Assembly (NCBI RefSeq): GCF_028356935.1
Contig: NZ_CP102798.1
Coordinates: forward strand, 868,001 to 932,000
Direction of reading: 5' to 3'
DNA from: Lysinibacillus sp. OF-1
GTDB taxonomy: Bacteria; Bacillota; Bacilli; Bacillales_A; Planococcaceae
DNA: 64,000 nucleotides
The position numbers and the translations under genes are program-made. The notes below the pieces were generated by a model. It worked only from the letters and a program-made list of their open reading frames with translations. It did no database searches and had not been told where the DNA came from. This document shows, piece by piece, positions 13,484-33,003 of the stretch. How positions within the stretch are numbered: position 1 is the first letter of the stretch; every line of letters starts with the position of its first letter.

Positions 13484-13507
13484 ATAGACAATGACAATAG
13501 CAAGTAG

Positions 13508-13602
13508 CGCCACTTCCCTCCGCTAGTATGAACTAGATCAGGTTCAAAGGGTCCGTACATCATCATATACGTCTCAGCCTTTTAAAGGCTCCCCTAGTGG
13601 TA
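13508..13602 (-). promoter_or_regulatory. TPP riboswitch (THI element)
   Basis: On the minus strand the conserved THI-box segments occur in order: ACTAGGGGAGCC, GGCTGAGA, GACCCTTTGAACCTGAT, then TAGCGGAGGGAAGTGG. These are the invariant TPP-binding core elements (the CUGAGA and ACCUGAU motifs). It controls thiW, through the terminator that follows it. Binding of thiamin pyrophosphate would be expected to switch expression off. Confidence 0.96.
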
Positions 13603-13671
13603 AATATCATTCAATTTTATTAACCAACATTACTGTAACATAATGTTAAAAATAGTCAATGATTTTTCTGA

Positions 13672-25534: not shown

Positions 25535-26758
25535 CTAATCGTTTGTTGGCTTACCAGCAGCTAACAAGACTTTACTTCCAAGTAAGAAAAATCCTTGAAT
25601 GAAAAGTAATATTCCTGTCCCTATTAGTAGCCATTCGATAGCAATTATATCAGCTATTGGACCAAAAATAAGCATACCTAAAGGCATCATAGAGGTAGAA
25701 ATCATGCTAAGAATACCAAATACTCGCCCCATATAATCACTTTCTACTTTTTCTTGTAATAACACCGTTGCGGGTGTATTAAAGATTGGCATAGCTATTC
25801 CTGTAACAGCCATTATCACGAGATACAGCCAAAAAACAGGAATAATTCCAAGAGCCATTGTACAAAGACCAAATAATAAAGCAGATAATGTCATGGTATG
25901 CACTTTATTTTTAAAGCCACCCCATGTCGCGATGGCAATACCACCGATTAACATACCAATGGCAAAGGCCATTTCGATGGCAGTCAAACGCCATACATCA
26001 TCGCCAAAGCTACGTGTAACTTGCAAAGGTGTTAAAAAGGCAGCAGGTGCAGCGAGCAACATGAAAAAGGCAAAGAACAAGAATAATTGTTTTAAGAAAG
26101 CATGCTCTTTAATGTAGATGAAGCCTTGTTTCATATCACTAAAATAGCTTGTTGTCTGTGGCTGATTCGCTTTGGCATGTGCAGGAATATGCAGAAATAA
26201 TAAGAAGATGGTGATGGCAATAGCAGCTGTCGTCACATCAATAAAGAAAATGGATTCGATTGAAGCCATCGTTAATAATGCCCCACTTGCCATGGGTGCA
26301 AGAATCATGATAAAAGCTTGAATACTGCTGTTTATCCCATTAACCTTCATTAAATGCTCTTCAGGCACAAATTGAGGTAAAATAGCGCCTACAGCAGGTG
26401 TTTGAATACCTGCACCAACTGCACGTACCGCTGATATAACAAATAATAGCCAGAGCTCATCATAGCCAGTTAAAAATAAAATAGCTAAAATTAACGTGGA
26501 TAAGGCAATCATGCCATCTGCCAAAATAATAAGCCATTTACGATTGTAGCGATCTGCCCAAACACCAGCAATTGGTGCTAAGAAGAAGGTCGGTACAAAA
26601 CCGCAAATAATCGCAATGGTCATCATGATGCCTGATTGCGTTGTAAGTGTGATATACCATGTAATGGCATATTGCACTAGAGCAGAGCCAAAAAGTGAAA
26701 TGGTTTGACTGCTTAAAAAAAGTATCGTATTGCGTTTCCAATGATCCAAATTCGTCAT
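25535..26758 (-). CDS. MFS transporter, macrolide-efflux (Mef) type
   Basis: A 407-residue protein with about twelve membrane segments. The N-terminus (WKRNTILFLSSQTISLFGSALVQYAITWYIT), the loop APIAGVWADRYNRKW after helix 2 and RAVGAGIQTPAVGAILPQFVPEEHL match the MFS_3/Mef family, which includes MefA macrolide pumps and YfiS-like proteins. The ATG at 26758 has AAAGGG directly adjacent; TTG 26749 would have better spacing, so three residues at the start are uncertain. The 140-base leader holds an Arg-Leu-Arg leader peptide and a terminator. That supports drug-inducible expression, probably by macrolides. The substrate is inferred, not shown. Confidence 0.85.
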   Translation of the reverse strand: MTNLDHWKRNTILFLSSQTISLFGSALVQYAITWYITLTTQSGIMMTIAIICGFVPTFFLAPIAGVWADRYNRKWLIILADGMIALSTLILAILFLTGYDELWLLFVISAVRAVGAGIQTPAVGAILPQFVPEEHLMKVNGINSSIQAFIMILAPMASGALLTMASIESIFFIDVTTAAIAITIFLLFLHIPAHAKANQPQTTSYFSDMKQGFIYIKEHAFLKQLFLFFAFFMLLAAPAAFLTPLQVTRSFGDDVWRLTAIEMAFAIGMLIGGIAIATWGGFKNKVHTMTLSALLFGLCTMALGIIPVFWLYLVIMAVTGIAMPIFNTPATVLLQEKVESDYMGRVFGILSMISTSMMPLGMLIFGPIADIIAIEWLLIGTGILLFIQGFFLLGSKVLLAAGKPTND

Positions 26759-26800
26759 CCCTTTCTAACAGTAGTGCCTGTGTGGAAAGTTGAAAGACAA

Positions 26801-26832
26801 CAAAAAAGAGGGGGTGTTGCAGTCCCCTCTCT
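26801..26832 (-). terminator. Attenuator terminator in the MFS leader
   Basis: Minus-strand hairpin AGAGGGG / CCCCCTCT (26824-26830 with 26807-26814), followed by TTTTTT. It lies between the leader peptide and the MFS gene, so it must be passed for the pump to be expressed. Confidence 0.8.
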
Positions 26833-26836
26833 TCCT

Positions 26837-26951
26837 GTATTCCTAAAACAGACTAGACTAATCCCATTTCCCTTGCACAGCAGGCAAAGTGTACACATAT
26901 TTAGTTAATAATGTGAAATCGTAGTCTGATTGAAGCTGTCATTAGGAATAC
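26837..26951 (-). promoter_or_regulatory. Complementary segments of the MFS leader RNA
   Basis: Two segments can pair. The ten bases 26942-26951 (RNA GUAUUCCUAA, between the leader ribosome site and start codon) are exactly complementary to 26837-26846 (UUAGGAAUAC). In addition, 26922-26928 (CAGACUA, the codons around the Arg-Leu-Arg motif) are exactly complementary to 26849-26855 (UAGUCUG). Both pairings can coexist in one helix with a bulge. A ribosome stalled at the motif would block the second pairing. Confidence 0.65.
26901..26942 (-). CDS. Leader peptide MTASIRLRFHIIN, predicted drug-sensing
   Basis: A 13-codon open frame with a strong ribosome site (GGAGGG, 8 bases before the ATG) and a TAA stop. 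It encodes MTASIRLRFHIIN. The core R-L-R-F after M-T-x-S closely resembles the ErmD leader MTHSMRLRFPTLNQ, whose RLR motif stalls macrolide-bound ribosomes. It precedes an intrinsic terminator and a Mef-type pump gene. Predicted role: cis-acting sensor of ribosome-targeting antibiotics. The peptide itself has no other expected function. Confidence 0.82.
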   Translation of the reverse strand: MTASIRLRFHIIN

Positions 26952-26976
26952 CCTCCGTTCTATATAAGTTGTGTTG

Positions 26977-27006
26977 ATTGTAGCATAAAGTTTATCTGCG
27001 CGTAAA
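26977..27006 (-). promoter_or_regulatory. Candidate promoter of the MFS leader transcript
   Basis: Minus strand: TTTACG (27006-27001), 18 bases, then TACAAT (26982-26977) with an extended TGC before it. Placed about 25 bases upstream of the leader ribosome site. Confidence 0.5.
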
Positions 27007-28980: not shown

Positions 28981-31900
28981 TTAATTTTCTTCAATATCTT
29001 TACGGTTTTTCTTTAACATTTTAGACAGCATTTCATAGACAATTGGTACAACAACTAATGTTAATAGTGTTGAAGATAGTAAACCACCAATTACAGTAAT
29101 AGCTAAGTCTTTCGAAATTAAACCACTGCCACCAGAACCAAGTGCCATTGGAATCATTGCCCCGATTGTGGCAATGGCTGTCATTAGGATTGGACGTAAA
29201 CGTGTTGCTCCTGCTTCGAGGATCGCTTCACGCATGGCAAGACCATCATGTTCCATATGAATGATGCGGTCGACTAATACGATGGCATTGGTTACGACGA
29301 TACCAATCAACATCAACAGACCCATCATTACAGATACAGAAATAGTTTGACCTGTAACGAATAAACCAATAAATGCTCCAATTACGGCGAATGGTAGGGA
29401 GAATAGAATAGCGAATGGAGCTAAACCTTCTCCAAATGTTACTACTAAGATGAAGTAAACAATGGCAATTGCCGCTAACATAGCAATACCAAGCTTAGTG
29501 AATGTTTCTTGCATATCGGCAGCAACACCCGCAACACCAGTTGTAACACCTTTTGGTAAATCTAATTTATCAATTTTCTTATCAGCAGCAGAAGTGGCTT
29601 TTGAAATATCGTCTCCGATAATCGTACCAGATACAGTTGCAAAGTATTCACCTTTTGAACGAGATAACGAGTTAAGTGTCGTACCTTCCTCGACATCAAC
29701 TAATTCACCGATTGTCATGGTTGTGCCTAAAGCCGTTTTAATTTCAGTAGCTAAGACATCATCTAAGGAAGTAGCAGCTGCTTTAGCATCACGTTGAACG
29801 ATCACATCAATATCTTTACCATCATTTTTAACGGTAGTTAATACTTCTTTTGTTGTATTCGAATTTAATGCCATCACGATTTGAGCTGTTGTTAAACCAT
29901 ATTGTAGGACATTTTTTTGTTCTACTTTTAGTACATGCTCTACGTATGGATCTTCGTTATCAGATTTAATATCTTCTAAGCCATCCACTTCTTTTAGGAC
30001 ACCTTCTACTTGTTTCACAGCATCTCGAAGTTTATCTAAGTCATCACTATATAATGTGTAGCTGACTTCGTTTGAAGACATAGACATAGAAGAGAAGTTT
30101 TGAGACTTCCATTCTCCTGATTGACCGATGTTGAATACATAGTCTTCTACTTCTTCACGAGCTTTAGGGAAGTCTTCCATATCTGGATCAAAGATAAGGT
30201 ACATTAAGGCACCACCAGCGCCTCCACCCATCATCATTGCTGATGGATCAACATTATTTGCATCCGTTATGGAAACTTGTAAAATATTAACGTCTTTACG
30301 CTTCATTAATTCTTTTTCTACTTTTTCAACATTCGCTGCCGTTTCATCAGCTAGTTCTCCAGTTGAAGGAGTATACGTTAAGTACATTACTTTTTCTTCT
30401 TGTGATCCCATGAAACTAAAGCCAATAAGTGGTGTTAATGCAAGAGAACCAGCAAGTAGGGCAATCGCAATGATAGAAGTAATAATTTTGTGATTTAATG
30501 TTTTTTCTAAAATACCTCTGTACCAAGTAGCAAGTTTCCCAACTTCTTTATGTTGGCTTTCTGTTTTTTCACCGTATAATTTTTTACGGAATAAGAAGTG
30601 AGATAATGCAGGTACGATGGTGATAGCTACTAATAGTGATGCACCTAGTGCAAATGTCATTGTTAGGGCGAATGGCATGAATAATTCGCCTACCATACCA
30701 CCTACGAAAATTAGTGGGGCAAATACCGCTACCGTTACTAATGTAGACGAAAGAATTGGTTTAAACATTTCAATCGTTGCTTCACGAATAAGGGCACGAC
30801 CCGTAAGTTTTTCTTGTTTTAAGTGAATGCGTCGATAAATATTTTCAACAACTACGATCGAGTCATCGATCACACGCCCAATTGCGACGGTAATCGCTCC
30901 AAGTGTCATAATGTTGAGTGTGATATCCATCCAGTTTAATAGCAGTAATGCCATGAAGACAGAAACTGGGATAGAAATAATTGAAATAATAGTTGATTTG
31001 AAATCGCGTAGGAATAGTAAAATGATTAAGACTGCAATAGCGCCACCAAATACTGCTTTTTCGATCATTGTAAATACAGAATCTTCAATTGGGGCTCCTT
31101 GGTCAAGGGAAATATCTACATTTAAGCCGTCTAATCGTTTTTCTTCATCTTTAATAAGGTCTTTTACTGCATTAACAACTGTTACCGTATTCGCATCCTG
31201 ACCTTTCACGATTTGAATGGCGATGGCATCTTGCCCATTTGTACGTGAAACAGATTGTACTTTACCTTCTACTTCAATTTTAGCAATATCACCTAGACGA
31301 ACGAAAGGTGAAGGATTTGTAGCTGAAGGTGTAACTGGAATTAATAAATCTTTTAGCTCATCAACAGATTGTACTTTACCATCTACTGAAACAGCCTGTT
31401 CGCCAACAGTAAACTGATATAAACCAAGTGACAGTGACATATCACTTGCCTGAATCATTTGTTTAACTGTATCCTCCGTTAAACCAAGTGCAGCCATTTT
31501 TTCTTCATCATATTTAAATGATACTTGTTCAATGTGCTGACCTGTGATGGTCGCAGAGGCAACACCATCAATTTTTTCAATTTTTGGAAGTAACACGTCT
31601 TCTACTGTAGAAGTTAAGTCTACAATATCTTCCTTAGAGCTACTTACAGATAAAGCAACTACTGGCATCATGTTCATGCTAATCGCCATAATAGTAGGCT
31701 CTTGAGCACCTTCAGGTAGTTTAAGATTATCTAAAGCTGCTTCTAATTGACGTTTCTTCTCATCCATATCAATTCCGTAGTCGTATTCTACTTGAACTTG
31801 TGCTACGTTGGAAGAGGATGTTGAGTAAACAGCTTTCACATCTTCTAAGCTTTCTATGGATTTTTCAAATGGAATGGAAAGCTCATTCATTACTTGTTCA

Positions 31901-32076
31901 GGCGTTGCGCCAGGATATACTCCCATGACAATTAAATATGGGATTGAAATATCGGGTATTGATTCCATTTTCATTCTTGTACCGGAATAAATACCAGAGA
32001 CAGTGATGATAATTGTTAGTAACCAAACTGCCAATTTGTTTTTTAATACGAAATTAACTAAACCTTTCACCTTCAC
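28981..32076 (-). CDS. RND efflux transporter, SwrC/YerP-like
   Basis: A 1031-residue pump of the AcrB type. The N-terminal helix (LAVWLLTIIITVSGIYSG), the loop IPYLIVMGVYPGATPEQV, and the helix segments LNIMTLGAITVAIGRVIDDSIVVVENIYRR and GIVVTNAIVLVDRI are the conserved RND features. The twin halves each carry a large extracytoplasmic loop. The closest remembered relative is B. subtilis SwrC (surfactin resistance and swarming). Gram-positive members work without an outer-membrane channel and are driven by protons. Divergent from a TetR gene, with a shared operator between them. Substrate unknown, likely amphiphiles or drugs. Confidence 0.92.
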   Translation of the reverse strand: MKVKGLVNFVLKNKLAVWLLTIIITVSGIYSGTRMKMESIPDISIPYLIVMGVYPGATPEQVMNELSIPFEKSIESLEDVKAVYSTSSSNVAQVQVEYDYGIDMDEKKRQLEAALDNLKLPEGAQEPTIMAISMNMMPVVALSVSSSKEDIVDLTSTVEDVLLPKIEKIDGVASATITGQHIEQVSFKYDEEKMAALGLTEDTVKQMIQASDMSLSLGLYQFTVGEQAVSVDGKVQSVDELKDLLIPVTPSATNPSPFVRLGDIAKIEVEGKVQSVSRTNGQDAIAIQIVKGQDANTVTVVNAVKDLIKDEEKRLDGLNVDISLDQGAPIEDSVFTMIEKAVFGGAIAVLIILLFLRDFKSTIISIISIPVSVFMALLLLNWMDITLNIMTLGAITVAIGRVIDDSIVVVENIYRRIHLKQEKLTGRALIREATIEMFKPILSSTLVTVAVFAPLIFVGGMVGELFMPFALTMTFALGASLLVAITIVPALSHFLFRKKLYGEKTESQHKEVGKLATWYRGILEKTLNHKIITSIIAIALLAGSLALTPLIGFSFMGSQEEKVMYLTYTPSTGELADETAANVEKVEKELMKRKDVNILQVSITDANNVDPSAMMMGGGAGGALMYLIFDPDMEDFPKAREEVEDYVFNIGQSGEWKSQNFSSMSMSSNEVSYTLYSDDLDKLRDAVKQVEGVLKEVDGLEDIKSDNEDPYVEHVLKVEQKNVLQYGLTTAQIVMALNSNTTKEVLTTVKNDGKDIDVIVQRDAKAAATSLDDVLATEIKTALGTTMTIGELVDVEEGTTLNSLSRSKGEYFATVSGTIIGDDISKATSAADKKIDKLDLPKGVTTGVAGVAADMQETFTKLGIAMLAAIAIVYFILVVTFGEGLAPFAILFSLPFAVIGAFIGLFVTGQTISVSVMMGLLMLIGIVVTNAIVLVDRIIHMEHDGLAMREAILEAGATRLRPILMTAIATIGAMIPMALGSGGSGLISKDLAITVIGGLLSSTLLTLVVVPIVYEMLSKMLKKNRKDIEEN

Positions 32077-32169: not shown

Positions 32170-33003
32170 ATGTTAAAAAAGCAATTAATTATGGAGAAAG
32201 CGATAGAGCTATTTTCTGAACAGGGTTTTGAAGCTACGTCAGTTCAACAAATTACAGAACGCTGTGGAATTTCTAAAGGTGCATTTTATTTATCCTTCAA
32301 AACAAAAGATGAGCTCGTTATTTCAATGGTGGATTACTATTTACAGCAGTTCATTACAGATATTGACCAAGTAGTCAGAGGAACCTATAGTAAAGAAACC
32401 GTATTGGTTGAATTTTATAAAAGCATCTTTCAAGCATTCAAAGCACATTCTACATCTGCTCGTGTGTTCTTTAACGAAAAGGTCTTTCTAACAAAAAAAG
32501 AGCTATTTCATAAAATAACAGCGTATGAAGCAGAAATGTCGAAATCAATCATCTATATGCTTGAACAACTTTATCAGGATAAATTACAAGAAACGAAATA
32601 TGATGTGATGTATTGTATAAAAGGATTTATGAAGAGTTATGCTGAGCTTTTTATTTTTTCAGATATGCCACTAGATTTAGAGCAATTGGCAAAATCTTTA
32701 GCAGAGAAGACAGATATTATTGCACACCATACAACCATTCCTTTTATTACAGCAGATCTTGTGCCATTTATTGCAAAACCTTGTGAACAAGATGTTTCAA
32801 AAGATGCTTTACTACAATTATTGGAGCAAAATATTGATCCTACTGAGGATCCTATTGTAAAAGAATCCCTTATGCTATTGAGACAAGAAATAGAAAATCC
32901 TACTTACAGTAAAGCCATCATTAAAGGGCTAATAGAAAATCTACGTCAAGACACAGCCTATCATTGGATTGCTTATGTAAGCGCAAAATACTTTAATATT
33001 TAA
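32170..33003 (+). CDS. TetR-family regulator of the RND pump
   Basis: A 277-residue protein, longer than the usual 190-220 of TetR proteins. The helix-turn-helix covers residues 10-56: EKAIELFSEQGFEATSVQQITERCGISKGAFYLSFKTKDEL. The remaining 220 residues are helical and would form the ligand and dimer domain, with an extra C-terminal part. Divergent from the RND gene across a palindromic operator, so it probably represses the pump and itself. The inducer is unknown. RBS AGGAGAG. Confidence 0.9.
   Translation: MLKKQLIMEKAIELFSEQGFEATSVQQITERCGISKGAFYLSFKTKDELVISMVDYYLQQFITDIDQVVRGTYSKETVLVEFYKSIFQAFKAHSTSARVFFNEKVFLTKKELFHKITAYEAEMSKSIIYMLEQLYQDKLQETKYDVMYCIKGFMKSYAELFIFSDMPLDLEQLAKSLAEKTDIIAHHTTIPFITADLVPFIAKPCEQDVSKDALLQLLEQNIDPTEDPIVKESLMLLRQEIENPTYSKAIIKGLIENLRQDTAYHWIAYVSAKYFNI

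Follow-up and report, generated by a model that had tools for sequence, protein, structure and literature searches.

The Mef-like efflux gene of the window, by which we mean the whole 64,000-nucleotide stretch of Lysinibacillus sp. OF-1 DNA that was analyzed, lies behind an ErmD-type RLR attenuator that is part of a broad, apparently uncatalogued RNA family. We are confident that this element is a ribosome-mediated transcription attenuator of the ErmD type, and we infer drug stalling at its leader, antiterminator pairing, and induction of the pump. Descriptions of inducible macrolide resistance usually take one gene at a time. On balance we favor the view that the leaders of ErmD and of this pump and the uORF motif of hflX are homologous and form a single RNA family. 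This family would be a portable cassette for drug sensing, placed in Bacilli before six or more unrelated gene families (seven if SDR is counted) and carried as far as plasmids labelled Gram-negative. If so, a single RNA family standing before genes for pumps, factors that protect the ribosome, a factor that splits it, methylases, and enzymes that modify drugs would account for a shared drug response. The family could then be used as a probe, a sequence-based route to unrecognized inducible resistance genes, and any gene of unknown role behind the RNA, such as the SDR oxidoreductase group, would be a candidate resistance gene. The interest of the finding lies in the RNA scaffold, in how broad and modular the family is, and in the placement of an ErmD-type RNA ahead of a Mef-like pump. 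The switches of ErmD, mef(E), hflXr, and tlrB have each been published already (PMC4335068, PMC6310831, PMC6851288, PMC8298421).

All elements of the attenuator and the pump are on the minus strand of the window. A promoter-like pattern match at 26977..27006 (TTTACG-18-TACAAT) consists of a -35 element, TTTACG, and an extended -10, TACAAT. The sequence-only reading of this DNA had called it near-consensus; the site is present, and it is largely kept among the RLR-bearing genus rows that were displayed, but the description is generous, since it has 9 of 12 consensus matches and patterns of this kind occur at chance level (7 found versus 6.8 expected in shuffles). The other parts named in that reading were all recovered. 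The Shine-Dalgarno sequence GGAGGG (26951..26956) precedes a 13-codon leader ORF, MTASIRLRFHIIN (26901..26942), which is conserved in relatives and carries RLR at codons 6 to 8. Two exactly complementary segments are nested around it. In the outer helix, P1, the 5' strand GTATTCCTAA (26942..26951), which runs from the end of the Shine-Dalgarno sequence through the start codon, is an exact 10-base complement of the 3' strand TTAGGAATAC (26837..26846). The inner helix, P2, has as its exact part CAGACTA (26922..26928), spanning the Arg6 and Leu7 codons, and TAGTCTG (26849..26855), which overlaps the proposed antiterminator strand. The covariance model R1, described below, places two hairpins inside these helices: P3 (26894..26915), which contains the 3' end and stop codon of the leader, and P4 (26871..26889). 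It matches the whole RNA core (26834..26960) with 62.2 bits. A predicted intrinsic terminator hairpin follows at 26802..26835, with a 12-bp stem, a 10-nucleotide loop, a folding energy of -16.3 kcal/mol, and a T run at the base of the 3' arm that makes up its last six 3' bases. A pattern scan for terminators listed none, probably because the scan permits loops of 3 to 8 nucleotides only. The MFS gene (25535..26758; 407 amino acids), identified as an ORF and by profile scans, comes next. The leader RNA folds at -58.3 kcal/mol (z = -3.56). Dinucleotide shuffling of positions 26805-26975 gave a 10-mer complementary pair by itself in 7 of 1,000 sequences and the nested 10- and 7-base segments in none of 1,000.

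A first pattern was taken from the conserved core and scanned across the genomes of named species, giving 19 loci (in one, L048, a contig end cuts the Shine-Dalgarno sequence). By eye, all 19 had the same RNA ahead of a resistance-type gene: 12 Mef-like MFS pumps, 3 HflX proteins, and 4 Mph phosphotransferases. The model R1 was built on 13 sequences (seed alignment A4), with both the window and the ErmD leader outside the seed. It found matches in 22 of 32 genomes of the genus and, in a sample of the class, in 96 of 398 genomes and 49 of 145 genera. A sample of the phylum gave 8 matches among 299, five of them outside the class; the four of these that were inspected lie before a Mef-like MFS gene, two ABC-F genes, and an Mph-like gene. 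The ErmD leader MTHSMRLRFPTLNQ of Bacillus licheniformis scored 92.2 bits (E = 5.6e-19), which shows that ErmD's own leader belongs to the R1 family. A second copy of the RNA was found in the window's own genome, outside the window (L052; G000:C1:4456811-4456944), with the leader MGYSMRLRFTFLNQ before an ABC-F gene that blastp clustering groups with an Msr-family representative; a single genome therefore carries two such switches. Rfam gave no match over the window leader RNA at gathering scores, where the sole match in the window is a TPP riboswitch at 13498-13605 (minus strand). A search of 19 loci with E values up to 1 gave five Rfam matches, all below the gathering score and none covering the leader. 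Identity with a known Rfam family was rejected, there being no leader match in the window or in the 19 loci searched.

We examined 151 RNA loci (100 plus 51), among which at least three places occur twice (L012/L062, L013/L063, and L003/L072) and L043/L081 is probably a fourth. The genes behind them come mostly from families with a known role in resistance to drugs that target the ribosome: Mef-like MFS pumps (32 loci), ABC-F proteins (31), HflX (27), Mph (25), and Erm (18), followed by RlmA-like proteins (7), LmrB-like DHA2 MFS pumps (7), SDR (2), another MFS pump (1), and one unclear case; one locus (L106) has the unclassified downstream gene, and another (L169) is a weak RNA match. These classes rest on blastp clusters, reading of the ORFs, and an NCBIfam scan of one representative per class, in which HflX, Erm, the Msr ABC-F, the EmrB subfamily, and a short-chain dehydrogenase model passed the cut-offs, whereas Mef, Mph, RlmA, and Lmr(B) were best matches under the curated cut-offs. 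For 35 of 100 aligned RNAs, two of the 35 involving L106, the nearest RNA relative lies before a gene of another class. This comparison of nearest relatives suggests that the gene behind the sensor may have been exchanged repeatedly. In five of the loci with LmrB-like DHA2 pumps (L056, L057, L058, L061, and L065) the leader is MTLRF or MTLKF, with the first Arg replaced by Thr; leaders of this group possibly sense a different drug.

The RNA is also found on plasmids. A similar leader was matched in 25 plasmid records, and R1 confirmed the RNA in all eight that were opened; the window RNA itself, used as query, gave no plasmid match. In the opened records the RNA stands before ErmD, before Mef(F)-Msr(G) (two records), before Mph (two records), before an RlmA-like gene that is followed by Msr, before an Msr-type ABC-F gene in a record labelled Stenotrophomonas, whose leader resembles the Lysinibacillus copies, and before an SDR gene in a record labelled Acinetobacter (L188, 1975-2091). 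The two SDR oxidoreductase loci, L060 and L188, have the same RNA fold, with the leaders MIDILSLNR and MIDILTLNR, which are without R-x-R; in L060, by eye, P2 pairing is kept through different codons. DNA similar to the SDR locus occurs in 35 plasmid records, 15 of them over at least 80% of the query. Among the matches listed are six E. coli rows in which the match begins inside the RNA, so that the 3' part of the RNA alone is present there, and the SDR-locus match in the E. coli rows listed overlies an APH(6)-Ic annotation. Judged by its position behind the RNA, the SDR gene could be an unrecognized inducible resistance gene.

A Shine-Dalgarno sequence, a start codon, and a leader with an R/K-x-R/K motif were found together in 124 of the 151 loci, compared with 46 of 3,020 dinucleotide shuffles, a control that was run because the leader finders favor peptides of the +x+ form. 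With the chosen start kept, the motif was present in 130 of 150 loci and 148 of 3,000 shuffles, the starts coming from the motif-favoring finder. A looser finder gave +x+ in 132 of 151 loci, five without a Shine-Dalgarno sequence, and left 19 without the motif. The motif begins at codon 6 in 79 loci and at codon 5 in 34. The Arg codons of the leaders vary synonymously (AGA, CGA, CGT, and CGC), as do the Arg/Lys codons across the family, an indication that selection acts on the peptide. Ribosomes stalled on ErmDL hold Leu7 in the P site (PMC8298421), and the window leader likewise has R6-L7-R8; the same study describes stalling of ErmDL with erythromycin that persists without RLR.

Covariation of the helices was examined in several alignments. 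In the model-fitted alignment A5 (100 of the 151 loci), 89.9% of cells pair and 25 of 33 pairs show both-sided changes, a value reached by none of 500 shuffles; slid partners pair in 32 to 63%. In P2, one pair is open in most A5 rows (68 of 99). At the first Arg codon one of four pairs has a both-sided change, and these pairs hardly vary. The unfitted seed alignment A4 has three both-sided pairs, and 52 of 500 shuffles score as high; RNAalifold on a MAFFT alignment (A3) gave 10 pairs, one of them compensated, probably so few because its rows are misaligned. Since A5 leans to the model, pairing was also tested in an alignment-free manner. For the tests on sets of 106, 98, and 114 loci, 31 near-duplicates among the 151 were left out by eye, and loci lacking a terminator, GUCU, or leader that could be used were dropped as well. 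Paired with its own partner, P1 scored -14.3, versus -8.5 with swapped partners, and its own strand was better than the mean swapped one in 111 of 114 loci; the values for P2 were -14.5 versus -12.4, with the own strand better in 90 of 114, and both counts are inflated by shared ancestry. Covariation of the two helices had been put forward earlier as a check on the proposal; P1 covaries clearly and P2 less so.

Terminator-like hairpins of -7 kcal/mol or better are present in 143 of the 151 family loci. The pairing of the GUCUG-pyrimidine strand with the terminator 5' arm scored -9.1, versus -6.9 for dinucleotide shuffles and -7.2 for the reversed strand; it was better than the shuffles in 86 of 106 loci and than the reversed strand in 77 of 106, and lay within the best 5% of its own shuffles in 32 of 106. 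Against mononucleotide shuffles it was better in 97 of 108 loci, and against swapped partners in 68 of 108 (P = 0.04, which is marginal). At the window the strand scored -9.7, weaker than the dinucleotide shuffle mean of -11.2; a longer strand gave -11.7 versus -9.0 swapped, with 15% of mononucleotide shuffles as good. When stalling was simulated in 98 loci by masking the ribosome footprint, antiterminator pairing rose from 0.21 to 0.26, which was not significant (P = 0.06), with a rise of more than 0.1 in 24 loci and a fall in 12. By class, the Mef loci went from 0.16 to 0.33 and the window from 0 to 0.32, and HflX and Erm went slightly down. At equilibrium the terminator of the stalled RNA still forms (0.80). 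In these models the antiterminator step is weakly supported, and we therefore infer the passage from stalling to readthrough; kinetics, or interference exerted directly by the stalled ribosome, may be more important than antiterminator pairing.

A scheme of drug-dependent stalling, refolding, and readthrough fits the conservation described above and, by analogy, the published stalling at ErmD. In the absence of drug, the leader would be translated and the ribosome released; the Shine-Dalgarno and start region would then pair with one downstream strand (P1) and the RLR codons with another (P2), with P3 and P4 inside, and the terminator would form and keep the pump off. Once a macrolide or ketolide occupied the exit tunnel, the ribosome would stall as on ErmDL, Leu7 occupying the P site and Arg8 the A site. 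Covering the RLR codons, it would block P2 and so P1, and the freed GUCUG-pyrimidine strand would interfere with the terminator 5' arm, allowing RNA polymerase to read into the pump gene.

Several known systems share parts of this arrangement. The ErmD/ErmK attenuator of B. licheniformis has the same RNA, as judged by R1, RLR at codons 6 to 8, and a terminator between leader and gene; it differs in governing an rRNA methylase, in its leader, and, by eye, in having two terminator-like hairpins (locus L183) where the window has one. The uORFC-6-1 motif of Bacillales (PMC8632094) is likewise a structured RNA with an RLR uORF before hflX, the gene class of 27 of our 151 loci, but as described it has 51 examples, mainly before hflX. 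From that description, the hflX subset of the R1 family is probably the published motif. An RLR uORF also precedes hflX in hflXr/rli80 (PMC6310831). The tlrB/yxjB system (PMC6851288) shares an R-x-R leader, macrolide stalling, and attenuation of both transcription and translation, here of an RlmA(II) gene; set beside the window by its description, it differs in that RYR closes a 9-residue leader and the inducer is tylosin. The sequence-only reading had treated RLR leaders as known before methylase genes and one before a Mef-type pump as possibly new. The suggested novelty does not hold, since transcription attenuation of a Mef pump by way of an MTASMRLR leader is in print (PMC4335068, PMC10314930), as are RLR leaders before hflX (PMC6310831, PMC8632094). 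The likeness of the leader peptides has been noted as well, for Mef(E)L, ErmK, and MsrA (PMC4335068), for RLR leaders (PMC6310831), and in general terms (PMC11264731). In the open literature searched, as far as its text was available, we found no paper in which one RNA model unites the switches of ErmD, mef(E), hflXr, and tlrB, and nothing on the window leader.

The resemblance to mef(E) raises the question of whether the streptococcal mef(E)/mel attenuator was carried into the genus. Mef(E)L, MTASMRLR, shares seven of its first eight residues with the window leader (MTASIRLR), which is one residue different and five residues longer, and both precede a Mef-type pump, the window's being a distant relative, with transcription attenuation as the mode of control for mef(E) (PMC4335068) and the proposed one here. 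The RNAs, however, differ. We found seven MTASMRLR leaders on viral contigs (L195 to L201), with a Mef-like ORF visible behind the leader in four (L195, L197, L199, and L201; the others end or change earlier). R1 had no leader match in any of the seven, the one match listed (13.7 bits) lying elsewhere in L199, and their leader RNA, by eye, is unlike the window's. The mef and mel/msr(D) genes, moreover, form an operon on mobile elements, whereas the window pump is chromosomal and alone, with no msr gene among the window ORFs behind it. Such a transfer is very unlikely, and identity with the mef(E) attenuator RNA, tested in the direction from R1 to mef(E), was rejected. Because R1 matches the ErmD leader but not the MTASMRLR leaders, we conclude that the window RNA is of the ErmD type and not the mef(E) type, despite the similar peptide. 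A similar peptide on two RNA scaffolds, that of the window and that of L195 to L201, reflects either convergence or very deep divergence.

Other readings accept the leader and change what it does. The main target of the switch might be translation of the pump or the stability of its mRNA, with the terminator in a minor role. The tlrB and cplR switches join transcription and translation attenuation (PMC6851288, PMC10201436), and the antiterminator evidence at the window is weak; since the pump's Shine-Dalgarno sequence sits past a strong predicted terminator, and terminator-like hairpins recur so widely in the family, we give this reading a modest chance. A leader that senses a nonmacrolide signal, such as lincosamides or generally slow translation, seems to us improbable. 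It would suit the members without +x+, which include the LmrB-like (MTLRF) and SDR (MIDIL) groups, and the induction of hflXr by lincomycin as well as erythromycin (PMC6310831), but the window holds the full MTASxRLRF form, in a family whose Arg/Lys codons vary synonymously. A chance assembly of short ORF, hairpin, and terminator, for which the chance-level promoter match could be cited, has next to no probability and was rejected on the absence of the nested segments from the shuffles and on conservation across genera with covariation. An ErmD-type transcription attenuator remains the preferred reading of the element.

The pump itself, on sequence comparison, is a distant relative of Mef. It is 31% identical to Mef(F), and in the NCBIfam scan it scored 228.4 bits against a cut-off of 800 for Mef(B) and 201.3 bits against 675 for Mef(A), so that it reached no curated score for a named Mef. 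It would presumably export macrolides. Homologs of the pump (E of 1e-60 or better) were found in 30 of the 101 genomes searched, 17 from the same genus, the window's own included, and 13 more distant. An MTASxRLRFH leader precedes 12 of the 17 genus homologs, in agreement with the expectation that RLR leaders would recur in relatives, and three have an RFR leader (MPGRFRFHNLNR twice and MPSRFRFRNLNR once); the remaining two, L014 and L018, have no leader within 1,000 bases and no R1 match. Among the 13 distant homologs, four have an MTASMRLR, MTTSMRLR, or MTASMKLR leader, and one of the nine without a leader, L029, offers only 196 bases of upstream sequence. With leaders at 15 of 17 genus and 4 of 13 distant homologs, the leader accompanies the pump in most of its close relatives, though not in every relative. 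In the three same-genus loci with RFR leaders (L015, L016, and L017) the leader starts 391 to 575 bases upstream of the pump, and one pump homolog, L008, has an internal TAA, yet its RLR leader is present. Near the MFS pump in the window are a large RND-type efflux gene (28981-32076, minus strand) and, divergent from it, a TetR-like regulator (32170-33003, plus strand), both named from their ORF translations.
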